The translations under genes and the position numbers were made by a program. The notes under the pieces are model-generated. The model searched no databases. It was not told where the DNA came from and saw only the letters and a program-made list of their open reading frames with translations. 64,000 nucleotides of DNA. Origin: Streptomyces sp. NBC_00490 (lineage in GTDB: Bacteria > Actinomycetota > Actinomycetes > Streptomycetales > Streptomycetaceae). Within the stretch, counting starts at the first letter, position 1, and every line of letters starts with the position of its first letter. Where the stretch lies: positions 6,448,001-6,512,000 of the forward strand of contig NZ_CP107869.1 of NCBI RefSeq assembly GCF_036013645.1. Direction: 5' to 3'. This document shows positions 22,226 to 33,968 of the stretch, one piece after another.

Positions 22226-22275
22226 ACTGCAACGCGCCCCAAAGCGGCGCGGGGAACTGCGCGAGCAACCACGAA
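22226..22275. repeat. Copy of an intergenic GC-rich repeat
   Basis: Contains GCGCGGGGAACTGCGCGAGC (22249-22268). The same core recurs at 33908-33927 and, in the opposite orientation, three times inside the pfkB kinase gene at 29815-30129. Here it occupies the region upstream of the binding-protein gene. Confidence 0.65.
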
Positions 22276-22332
22276 CAACCCGCAGCCGCAAGACGACACG
22301 AACCCCTACGGCGAAACGCACTGTGTGTGGCA

Positions 22333-29067: not shown

Positions 29068-30426
29068 ATGACCGAGACCCGAGGAGCTACGACCATCGTG
29101 ACCAACGCCCCCGGCATCGTGGATGTCGTCGCGCTCGGCGAGTCCATGGTCACGTTCCTGCCCAGCCGGCCCGGCCGTCTCGCCGATGTGCCGTCGTTCG
29201 AGCGGGGGATCGGCGGGGCGGAGTCGAACCTGGCCTGCGGGCTGGCCGCCGCGGGGCACTCCGTGCGGTGGGTGAGCCGGGTGGGCGCGGACGGCTTCGG
29301 CGACCATCTGGTGGCGACGGTCGGTTCGTACGGCGTGGACGTGTCCGCTGTACGCCGTGATCCGGTGCGACCGACGGGCGTGTACTTCCGTACGGCGGGG
29401 GAGCGGGGTACGGACGCGCACGAGGTCGCCTACTACCGGGCGGGGTCGGCGGCGTCGGCGATGTCCGCGGAGAACGTGGACCTGGAGGCGGTACGGGCGG
29501 GGCGGGTGCTGCATCTGACGGGGATCACCGCGGCGTTGTCCGAGGGCTGCCGGGGGTTGCTGCACGAGCTGACGGCTCCCGGCGCGGGGCGCCCCCTGAT
29601 CTCCTTCGACGTGAACCACCGGCCCGATCTGTGGCGGGACGCCGAGGGGGCGGAGGTGGTGCGGGAACTGGCACGCCGGGCGGATGTGGTGTTCGTGGGG
29701 GAGGACGAGGCGTGGGGGGTGACGGGCGGTCCCTCGGCGGTCCGGGAGCTCCTGCCCGAGCCGGGCGTGCTGGTGGTGAAGCAAGGGGCCGAGGGGGCTA
29801 CGGCATTCGTCTCGGCTGCGGGCCGGCGGGGGCTGGTCGCGCAGTTCCCCGCGCCCCTGGGGTCGGGTGGCGACCCGGTGTCTCAAGGTGAGGCTTCCTC
29901 GCCTGCGGAGCCTGCGGGCAGTCGTGACGCTGCGGGCCGGCGGGGGCTGGTCGCGCAGTTCCCCGCGCCCCTGAGGTCGGATACCGACCCGGAGTCACAA
30001 GGCGAGGCATCCTTGCCTGCGCCGGCTGCGGGCAGTCGTGACGCTGCGGGTGAGTGGAGGCTGGTCGCGCAGTTCCCCGCGCCCCTGGGGTCGGGGGGCG
30101 ACCCGGTGTCTCAAGGTGAGGCTTCCTCGGCCACCTTTGTTCCTGCCCTCGACGTCGATGTCGTGGCCACCACCGGTGCTGGGGACGCCTTTGCTGCCGG
30201 GTTTCTTTCCGGGATGTTGCGAGGTCTCTCCGTGAAGGCATGTCTTCGGGCCGCGCATCTCCATGCTGCCGCCACGCTCACCACCCCCGGTGACCTCGCC
30301 GTGCCCCCCGCCCGCGACACCGTCGACCGGCTGGCGGCCGTGGACGACGGGACCTGGGGGACACTTCGACTCGGCCCCGGCTGGACGCAAGCCGTGCAGG
30401 CCCCGGAGGAGGTACGCATTCCATGA
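29068..30426 (+). CDS. PfkB-family sugar kinase with in-frame repeat insertion (KDG kinase-like)
   Basis: Ribokinase/PfkB kinase, possibly 2-keto-3-deoxygluconate kinase. N-terminal part: VVALGESMVTFLPS, the GGAESNLACGLAAAGH substrate motif, ISFDVNHRPDLW and VFVGEDEA. C-terminal part: TTGAGDAFAAGFLSG, the ATP/anion-hole signature with catalytic Asp. It has 452 residues against a usual 310-350. The excess is about 105 residues after VVKQGAEGATAFVS, encoded by nearly three copies of a 114-bp repeat (29815-30129) that does not break the frame. Whether the enzyme tolerates this loop is unknown. ATG 29068 is used; GTG 29098 is an alternative with GAGGAG 11 nt upstream. The stop overlaps the IclR start (ATGA). 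Confidence 0.85.
   Translation: MTETRGATTIVTNAPGIVDVVALGESMVTFLPSRPGRLADVPSFERGIGGAESNLACGLAAAGHSVRWVSRVGADGFGDHLVATVGSYGVDVSAVRRDPVRPTGVYFRTAGERGTDAHEVAYYRAGSAASAMSAENVDLEAVRAGRVLHLTGITAALSEGCRGLLHELTAPGAGRPLISFDVNHRPDLWRDAEGAEVVRELARRADVVFVGEDEAWGVTGGPSAVRELLPEPGVLVVKQGAEGATAFVSAAGRRGLVAQFPAPLGSGGDPVSQGEASSPAEPAGSRDAAGRRGLVAQFPAPLRSDTDPESQGEASLPAPAAGSRDAAGEWRLVAQFPAPLGSGGDPVSQGEASSATFVPALDVDVVATTGAGDAFAAGFLSGMLRGLSVKACLRAAHLHAAATLTTPGDLAVPPARDTVDRLAAVDDGTWGTLRLGPGWTQAVQAPEEVRIP
29815..30129 (+). repeat. Nearly three tandem copies of a 114-bp repeat inside the kinase gene
   Basis: Copies start at 29815, 29929 and 30043, exactly 114 bp (38 codons) apart; the third stops after about 87 bp. 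Each encodes LVAQFPAPL followed by a Gly/Asp/Pro/Ser/Glu-rich stretch. The first about 30 bp of each is the reverse complement of the intergenic repeat core at 22249 and 33908. Copies 1 and 3 are more alike than copy 2. Confidence 0.92.
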
Positions 30427-31187
30427 GCCAGACCGTCGACCGCGCGCTCAGCATCCTGCCGCTGCTCGCAGAGGGTCCCGCAGACCTGGGGCAGGTCGCC
30501 GACCGCCTCGGCGTCCACAAGTCCACGGCACTGCGGCTCCTGCGCACGCTCCACGAACACGGCATGGTCTACCGCCAGTCCGACCAGCGCTACCGCCTCG
30601 GCGCCCGCCTCATCGCGCTGGCCCAGGAGGCGATGGAGAACCTGGACATCCGCGAGATCGCCCACCCTCACCTCGTACGCCTCAACGAGCAGTGCGGCCA
30701 CACCGTCCACCTCGCCGTGTACGAGGAGCCCGAGGTCCTCTACATCGACAAGGTCGAGAGCCGCTACCCGGTCCGGATGTACTCCCGGATCGGCAAACCC
30801 GTCGCCATCACCGTCGCGGCCGTGGCCAAGCTGCTCCTCGCCGACCTCCACGAGACCGAGCGCCGCACCCTCGCGGACAAGCTCGAGTACCCCATGTACA
30901 CGTCCCGTTCGACCCCCAACGCACCCGCTTTCCTAAAGGAGTTGGAGCGCGTGCGCGAACAGGGCTGGGCCACCGACCTCGGTGGCCACGAGGAGTCCAT
31001 CAACTGCGTCGCCGCACCGATCCGCGGCGCCGACGGCAGGGTCGTGGCCGCGATGTCGGTCTCCGCCCCGAACGTCGTCGTCACCGCCGACGAACTCCTC
31101 ACCCTGCTCCCGCTGGTCCGCCGTACCGCGGACACCGTCAGCGGCGAGTACTCCGGCAGAACCCCCGTCAAGGAAGCCACCTCATGA
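30423..31187 (+). CDS. IclR-family transcriptional regulator
   Basis: A 254-residue regulator. Winged helix at residues about 2-60 (TVDRALSILPLLAEG, ADRLGVHKSTALRLLRTLHEHGMV), and an IclR effector domain with HTVHLAVYEEPEVLYIDKVES, the Gly/Ala-rich VAAVAKLLLA stretch and INCVAAPIRGADGRVVAAMSVS. It overlaps the kinase upstream and RidA downstream by 4 nt each. It probably controls this operon and the divergent D-amino-acid genes through the repeats at 28986-29028, in response to a keto acid or sugar acid. Confidence 0.93.
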   Translation: MSQTVDRALSILPLLAEGPADLGQVADRLGVHKSTALRLLRTLHEHGMVYRQSDQRYRLGARLIALAQEAMENLDIREIAHPHLVRLNEQCGHTVHLAVYEEPEVLYIDKVESRYPVRMYSRIGKPVAITVAAVAKLLLADLHETERRTLADKLEYPMYTSRSTPNAPAFLKELERVREQGWATDLGGHEESINCVAAPIRGADGRVVAAMSVSAPNVVVTADELLTLLPLVRRTADTVSGEYSGRTPVKEATS

Positions 31188-33349: not shown

Positions 33350-33895
33350 GTGGAGCAGCGCATAGGTTCGAGCAGCAAGCCCCTGGAAGGTGCCGGGTTC
33401 GATCCGGCCTTCATCCCCGGGCTGACCTCACCCGTGTCCGGCGAGCCCGAGGACGTCGAGCCGGAGGACGCCGAGGAGCCCCTCGCGGAGGAGGTGTCCC
33501 TCACGAAGAAGGAGGCCGCCGACACCGAGGAGGAACCCACTCCCGACGAGCCGGAGGCGGACGCGGCGGACGGCCCTGTCTTCGAGGCGTCCGACCGCCG
33601 CGCGAAGATCGTCGCCGACGCGAAGGGCGTACGCCTGAGCCTCGACGAGGAGCGGTGCGAGTTCCGCTGGGACGAGATCGGCGCGGTCGAGACCGAGACG
33701 CCGCGCTTCGGCAAGCGGTACACGATCACCGTGCACACCCCGGACCGGCGCTGGTACCCGATCGAGATCGAGGCCACGTCGCGGGCGCGTTTCCAGGAGT
33801 GGGACGAGCAGTTGGACGCCGTCCTCGACGCCTACTTCGAAGACGACGCCACCACCACCGCCGACGACGTCGCCGACAAGACCGAGGACGACTAG
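33350..33895 (+). CDS. Acidic protein with PH-like C-terminal domain, unknown function
   Basis: A 181-residue soluble protein. The N-terminal half is highly acidic and probably disordered (repeated Glu/Asp/Pro). Residues about 95-170 form a compact domain (SDRRAKIVADAKGVRLSL, FRWDEIGAVETE, YTITVHTPDRRWYPIEIEA, FQEWDEQLDAVLDAYF). The 115-residue protein at 39457 has the same domain pattern, so the two are probably paralogues. GTG 33350 was chosen because upstream in-frame codons run into the palindrome. CATACT lies only about 6 nt upstream, so the message might be leaderless. Confidence 0.6.
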   Translation: MEQRIGSSSKPLEGAGFDPAFIPGLTSPVSGEPEDVEPEDAEEPLAEEVSLTKKEAADTEEEPTPDEPEADAADGPVFEASDRRAKIVADAKGVRLSLDEERCEFRWDEIGAVETETPRFGKRYTITVHTPDRRWYPIEIEATSRARFQEWDEQLDAVLDAYFEDDATTTADDVADKTEDD

Positions 33896-33907
33896 TCCCA
33901 CCCAGGG

Positions 33908-33954
33908 GCGCGGGGAACTGCGCGACCGGCCGTCACCGGTCCGCAGCTCCCCGC
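33908..33954. repeat. Intergenic repeat forming a hairpin between convergent genes
   Basis: Contains the repeat core GCGCGGGGAACTGCGCGACC, and its left arm (33910-33922) pairs with 33942-33954 in 12 of 13 positions. It lies between the acidic-protein gene and the convergent carboxypeptidase gene, so it may act as a two-way terminator. Confidence 0.65.
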
Positions 33955-33968
33955 CGACCTGTCCGCCT

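Follow-up and report, generated by a model that had tools for sequence, protein, structure and literature searches.

In-frame copies of dispersed repeats in a variable loop of a Streptomyces sugar kinase

A PfkB-family sugar kinase gene of Streptomyces sp. NBC_00490 carries an in-frame tandem array whose units begin with the reverse complement of a dispersed, mostly intergenic repeat. This locus raises the question of how a noncoding repeat comes to be read as part of a conserved enzyme, and what becomes of it there. We followed the repeat and its host loop through the window (the whole 64-kb stretch of DNA that was analysed), the 10.8-Mb genome and 150 genomes drawn from the genus.

A dispersed repeat in frame in a kinase gene

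The features of the locus, in window positions, are as follows.

29068..30426, plus strand: PfkB-family sugar kinase gene, predicted KDG-kinase-like fold, 452 aa, ATG at 29068
29815..29928, plus strand: array unit 1, 114 bp, 38 codons, found by TRF and repeat search
29929..30042, plus strand: array unit 2, differing from unit 1 at 12 of 114 positions
30043..30129, plus strand: array unit 3, partial, 87 nt, 29 codons, differing from unit 1 at 6 of 87 positions
29837..29857 (C1:6477837-6477857), minus strand: repeat-A core GGGGCGCGGGGAACTGCGCGA in unit 1; the plus strand reads LVAQFPAPL
29951..29971, minus strand: repeat-A core in unit 2
30065..30085, minus strand: repeat-A core in unit 3
29848..30114, plus strand: predicted disordered stretch, codons 261-349, pLDDT about 30 (below 50)
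30175..30192, plus strand: GAGDAF motif, residues 370-375, intact downstream of the insert
30423..31187, plus strand: IclR-family regulator gene, its start overlapping the kinase stop
22243..22288, plus strand: diverged repeat-A copy, between genes as judged by eye
33901..33947, plus strand: repeat-A copy between convergent genes, with a strong predicted hairpin

TRF described the array at 29815-30129 as 2.8 copies of a 114-nt period with 86% matches and 0% indels, and a separate repeat search placed the copies at 29815, 29929 and 30043. The unit start is a codon boundary, and the array is in phase with the kinase open reading frame. Together with the kinase match, these results confirmed the sequence-only reading of nearly three tandem 38-codon copies within a PfkB gene whose frame is intact; the kinase part indeed scored 144.5 bits against the Pfam PfkB model PF00294, above the gathering cut-off of 25.8. 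The loop holding the array measures 124 residues, as against 21 in the ground state described below, so that the insert amounts to about 103 residues, close to the 105 or so first estimated. Because the ATG of the IclR-family regulator overlaps the kinase stop (ATGA), the two genes are probably co-transcribed.

Every unit begins with 45-47 bp whose complementarity to the intergenic copy at 33901-33947 is 85-89%; for unit 1 and the copy at 22243-22288 the figure is 80%. Only about 45 bp of the 114-bp unit belong to the dispersed repeat, which we call repeat A, and the remainder is unit-specific. The core had 153 matches in the genome at up to 2 mismatches, and the reversed pattern none. We aligned 94 copies from 72 stretches, mostly those listed first among the 153 matches; their conserved part is about 45 bp long, with the ungapped consensus AGGGGCGCGGGGAACTGCGCGACCAGCC. 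A home-made codon-usage gene caller assigned 38 of these copies to convergent gaps, 46 to co-directional gaps, 5 to divergent gaps and 5 to the inside of genes, having missed the kinase itself and wrongly counted its three copies among the gaps. Repeat A therefore lies outside genes in 86 of the 94 copies, the remaining eight being the kinase's own three and the five in other genes. The start of each unit is thus the reverse complement of a dispersed repeat, as had been read from the sequence, whereas the description of that repeat as otherwise intergenic holds for these 86 copies and fails for the five in other genes. The idea of a repeat being turned into protein is supported as well, the insert DNA being a dispersed repeat of the same genome.

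The excess of convergent gaps (38) over divergent ones (5) implies that repeat A sits at 3' ends, in a terminator-like position. The predicted hairpin at 33895-33955, around one intergenic copy, is far more stable than its shuffles (z -5.59); kinase unit 1, evaluated in the same manner as a structured RNA, is no more stable than shuffled sequence (z -0.20). There were 0 Rfam matches within the 64-kb window, and terminal inverted repeats are not evident in the ungapped consensus. REP elements have a conserved GTAG head adjoining a palindrome; such a head is absent from the consensus of the 94 copies, and repeat A is therefore not classed with them. Across the genus, repeat A was present at up to 1 mismatch in 86 of 150 genomes, the present one included, with a maximum of 845 copies in one genome (G059), and the reversed control gave 1 match in all 150 (in G014). 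In another genome (G093), the perfect copies listed lie on the plus strand from 0.8 to 3.8 Mb and on the minus strand at 6.0-6.1 Mb, an orientation possibly reflecting a replication-strand bias. Tandem copies also occur outside the kinase: repeat A recurs at 114-bp spacing between genes at one locus (L006) and in 84-bp steps in G095 (contig C21).

An AlphaFold2 model built from a diverse alignment of 33 sequences reached a mean pLDDT of 77.2 and a pTM of 0.77, an earlier model from 40 close homologs having been poor (mean pLDDT 50.1). In the better model the kinase core is confident, and the disordered residues 261-349 are flanked by predicted strands at 243-248 and 354-359. Its best structural matches are KDG-kinase-like PfkB proteins (1v19, 2v78, 4du5 and 1v1b; TM-score 0.89-0.92 on the target length). 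Compared with the KDG kinases 1v19, 2v78 and 4du5, the fold and the GAGDAF motif are common to all, whereas the roughly 103 extra residues between two strands are found here. The sequence, too, is KDG-kinase-like, although its score against NCBIfam NF040938 (2-keto-3-deoxygluconate kinase), 167.4, lies below the cut-off of 400, the insert splitting the match. G370-F375, a motif with a presumed active-site role, are invariant in the alignment (A2), and the other conserved kinase residues are likewise intact. Differences among the array units fall at the three codon positions in the ratios 4/5/3, 3/1/2 and 5/5/5; this roughly equal spread, over few differences, gives no sign of constraint on the insert peptide.

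Loop length and repeat families among orthologs

A kinase match at E<=1e-60 was found in 113 of the 150 genomes, and 110 of these loci were examined at the DNA level. The loop is one open frame in 106 of the 110. Of the other four, two end at contig ends (L022, L036), one has lost the frame before the loop (L115), and in one, on a contig with masked sequence, the kinase likeness ends at the loop (L114). By a wide measure, which starts at the conserved Lys and ends at the glycine preceding AGD, 30 residues is the most frequent length (in 18 of the 101 genus loci that could be parsed), and this corresponds to 21 by the narrower measure; the wide length is at most 35 in 40 of the 106 loci and at least 44 in 48. 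The ground state is thus about 21 residues, and the 48 loci are expanded, up to 177 residues. In other genera, where 19 loci were found as best matches of presumed orthology and 9 could be parsed (10 could not), eight have 30-31 residues and one has 58 (L228). With 44 as the limit between short and long, a tree of the kinase core built without the loop requires at least 23 changes of state. Among the 120 homologs listed from a search with the insert-containing kinase, the loop ranges from 21 to 210 residues by the narrower measure, and some relatives have one unit (P0009, P0010) or two (P0002-P0004) in place of three. Orthologs without the insertion hence exist within the genus and, presumably, beyond it. 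Among all these loci, no empty and filled pair was close enough to reveal insertion boundaries or a target duplication.

Repeat A is one of several repeats in this loop. A variant, B, is repeat A with its AACT exchanged for a longer, hairpin-like module, and two further patterns, C (TGCGGGCAGTCGTGCCGCTGGGGCGGCAC) and D (GGACCCCGCTCCTCAAACGCCGGAGGGGCTG), were found in the linkers. At loose limits (3, 7, 6 and 6 mismatches for A, B, C and D), the 106 linkers contain A in 2, B in 2, C in 4 and D in 7, the reversed patterns being found in 0. The B, C and D patterns are also dispersed in the genus, occurring in 55, 40 and 82 of the 150 genomes, respectively, with 0 matches to the reversed controls. 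Since A and B are the same repeat with either of two cores, we count them as one, and at least three unrelated dispersed families (A/B, C and D) are present in one kinase loop in different lineages. A weaker fifth pattern, E (GGGGGGTGTCCGCCCGCAGCGGATG), was noticed on visual inspection in four of the linkers; the reversed control for E gave 15 single matches in the 150 genomes. On the core tree, the minimum numbers of changes, in which gains and losses are indistinguishable, are 2 for A, 1 for B, 4 for C, 5 for D and 2 for E. The rarity that had been ascribed to the insert does not hold, since the loop has been filled repeatedly by several families and the genome has in-frame copies in other genes as well.

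Many other expansions consist of short tandem peptides or lack a match to these families. The same loop grows by DADMTP, GFEDRGAD and ATSRPD, for example, in three linkers (L019, L095 and L014, respectively). In another linker (L017), the reading frame runs through a type-D element that resembles an inverted repeat and is well over 100 bp long. Family C is entered in three different frames upstream, all of which return to a single frame downstream, a pattern that also fits internal indels and is used qualitatively, the regex having returned false positives of the APRRRGQ type. In the kinase array itself, the unit-specific stretch at window positions 29912-29936 (CTGCGGGCAGTCGTGACGCTGCGGG) resembles the start of family C, and from this likeness the 114-bp unit may be repeat A plus a piece of family C; the family C pattern had 0 matches in the genome itself at up to 3 mismatches.

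Alternative modules in two unrelated proteins

Five other genes of the genome carry repeat A, three of them internally and in frame and two as a C-terminal tail, with protein names assigned by eye.

L002 1476-1521, minus strand: repeat A in frame as KGRGELRDQPPPARR, apparent NRPS adenylation domain
L160 2064-2109, minus strand: repeat A in frame as RGAGNCATSHHAPAP, AfsR/LuxR-like regulator (P0122)
L139:1464-2885 (C1:3399263-3400684), minus strand: gene of membrane protein P0121, with the repeat in frame as GRGELRDKP
L126 2021-2066, minus strand: repeat A as C-terminal tail, phosphatase-like protein
L170 1979-2024, minus strand: repeat A as C-terminal tail, TetR-like protein

A search for orthologs of the regulator P0122 in 61 genomes (E<=1e-100) returned itself alone. 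The membrane protein and the kinase are unrelated, and the repeat is translated from opposite strands in the two.

Among the 120 kinase homologs listed, 63 are of the A type (GLVA-QF-PAPL or alike), 32 of the B type (GLVA-PRGGAAHRHS-PAPL or alike) and 7 of a B2 type (GLVA-PTRRSRTCHS-PAPL), while 18 were left untyped by the regex, some of them resembling an eroded B. These counts are skewed towards A and B because the query contained the insert; in the evenly drawn set, A or B is found in only 4 of 106 loci. At least 17 switches between A, B and B2 are required on the core tree of the homologs (102 of 120 typed), which is weakly supported, with 17 of 117 branches starred; the trees of both proteins are quick ones with SH-aLRT support only. 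One kinase of the B type (P0013) differs from its A-type relatives (P0005, P0007) in the module and has a similar downstream insert (PES...AASSP). The membrane protein behaves alike: together with P0121 itself, its 120 homologs comprise 30 of the A type (GRGELRD), 58 of the B type (GRGAVLNLRLPPRGRD and alike) and 33 with neither, and at least 21 A/B switches are required on its tree (88 of 121 typed). Six sister pairs with SH-aLRT of at least 95 differ in type (P0176/P0179, P0178/P0190, P0184/P0186, P0143/P0154, P0152/P0155 and P0194/P0228).

Module lengths bear on how such differences pass through a reading frame. The B cores of the genome itself, in 16 copies (L239, unparsed, left out), are 29 nt long in 10, 28 nt in 5 and 23 nt in 1. 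A CTACC/CTGCC sub-variant, in 11 copies from eleven genomes (L263, unparsed, left out; L261 being the membrane-protein gene itself), is 31 nt long in 9 and 30 nt in 2. Relative to A, with 4 nt, only 28 and 31 nt among these lengths keep the frame. In the membrane protein, the modules of the 89 of 121 loops that fit the regex have 2 residues in 31, 10 in 2 and 11 in 56, equivalent to 4, 28 and 31 nt, so that the 31-nt module makes up 56 of the 58 B types; the rare 28-nt module appears at two separate places of the tree (P0161, P0174). In the kinase, the B module is equivalent to 28 nt as derived from the peptides (10 residues versus 2), the regex for module length there being noisy. Read in the kinase frame, four of the genome's five 28-nt modules are open and give ortholog-type peptides (such as LVAPRGGAAHRYSPAP), and one contains a stop. 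The 31-nt modules are open in the membrane-protein frame in 9 of 9, with its peptide type, and bring a TAG stop in the kinase frame in 7 of 9; no 31-nt type was recognised in the kinase homolog set. The module lengths agree with a filter for open frames, an agreement that is partly circular because the modules were found within open proteins, and a module that broke the frame would not have come up there as a module. Independent evidence for the filter comes from the 106 of 110 loci that read through the loop at the DNA level.

Possible origins of the inserts

We consider it likely that a tolerant loop has sampled noncoding repeats, of which those in frame were kept and afterwards amplified and exchanged in their cores. 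The loop, between two beta strands and just ahead of GAGDAF, would accept almost any extra peptide. GC-rich repeats that are dispersed in Streptomyces and normally intergenic would be copied or inserted into it, selection would purge every insertion that caused a frameshift or introduced a stop, and those in frame would persist as a disordered, nearly neutral spacer in a kinase that presumably still works. Tandem amplification of an insert could follow, reaching 2.8 units of 38 codons here, as could its replacement. The central module (4 nt in A, 28 or 31 nt in the B types) could also give way to that of another version of the repeat, for which gene conversion with dispersed copies over short tracts would be the simplest route. 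A bolder form of this proposal is that loops of two unrelated proteins, which translate the repeat from opposite strands and each in a frame of its own, undergo lasting template-directed exchange with a stock of noncoding repeats through gene conversion, selection passing only open-frame modules; we put this forward tentatively and with considerable doubt, in part because module lengths known from database proteins are partly circular as evidence. If it is true, the noncoding repeat pool would be an accidental generator of variety in protein loops.

That the array is an artefact of assembly or annotation, or that the gene is a decaying pseudogene, is scarcely credible. Tandem repeats are prone to misassembly and the array is known here from the assembly alone; however, its three units differ from one another, and one or two homologous units occur in the assemblies of other strains. 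Two of the 110 ortholog loci are indeed broken (L115, L114), but the frame is kept in 106, with GAGDAF and other conserved residues intact. It is also very improbable that the insert belongs to the kinase as an ordinary domain or as a selected functional linker, with the intergenic copies unrelated to it or derived from it. Many relatives do have inserts with the frame kept; nevertheless, the loop is about 21 residues long in many members of the genus and in most parsed loci of other genera, unrelated families occupy the same site, the insert is predicted to be disordered, and repeat A reaches up to 845 copies in one genome. The dispersed repeat and the relatives with one or two units hence argue against both readings, and the short loops show that the insert is not a domain of all orthologs.

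A more serious rival, to which we give somewhat less than even credence, holds that captures were few and that strains later passed the different modules among themselves by allelic homologous recombination, with no intergenic input. Streptomyces do recombine, and if each gene were lastingly polymorphic for A and B, the core tree would show what looks like switching. In the membrane protein one 31-nt module dominates (56 of 58), while the B cores of the genome are mostly 29 nt (10 of 16), and this leans towards the rival and away from short-tract exchange. On the other hand, the kinase P0013 differs in its module while its downstream insert is similar, so that allelic tracts would need to be short; the rare 28-nt module turns up in two separate parts of the membrane-protein tree; and 28- and 31-nt modules are also dispersed in genomes. 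P0013 and the two separate 28-nt modules lean towards short-tract exchange.

Capture of dispersed repeats by a tolerant loop would have parallels among known small repeats. Rickettsia palindromic elements (RPE) are small repeats that are dispersed, mostly intergenic and found in frame in conserved proteins, apparently nearly neutrally (Ogata 2000, as cited in the review PMC2229807). The review counts 19 reading frames of Rickettsia with such an element and describes a guanylate kinase that carries one and remains active, its substrate affinity being changed. The Streptomyces repeats likewise are scattered through the genome, lie mainly between genes and are read in frame in several genes unrelated to one another (the kinase, three internal and two C-terminal). 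They are unlike RPE in that several families share one loop, cores switch and tandem amplification takes place inside the protein. Their way of working may be called RPE-like, by description rather than by sequence, and we do not file them in the RPE sequence family. According to the same review, open frames of small repeats are fused to ORFs in ERIC/RU-1, Correia and other bacterial MITEs. Of the two Correia versions, the 107-bp one, which has open frames, often lies inside genes, whereas the 155-bp one, which carries stops, does not, a single case excepted; the frame filter proposed here would be of the same kind. MITEs are marked by terminal inverted repeats and target duplications; in the Streptomyces repeats the former are not evident in the ungapped consensus, and no empty site close enough to show the latter was found. 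None of the open-access titles and abstract starts listed by the literature search names these repeats; the whole 21-letter core was found in none of the open-access papers searched, and of five 12-13-letter pieces one occurs once, in a clam paper. Passages of PMC1590033, PMC4681348 and PMC1525189 are silent on these repeats; the reference list of PMC4681348 contains a review title raising gene conversion for REP evolution.

One enzyme loop in over a hundred genomes, whose ground state is known and which several repeat families have entered, amounts to a natural, replicated experiment on the passage of noncoding DNA into protein. Whether noncoding repeats and coding copies exchange thereby becomes testable, as does the question of how much disordered insert a conserved enzyme tolerates.
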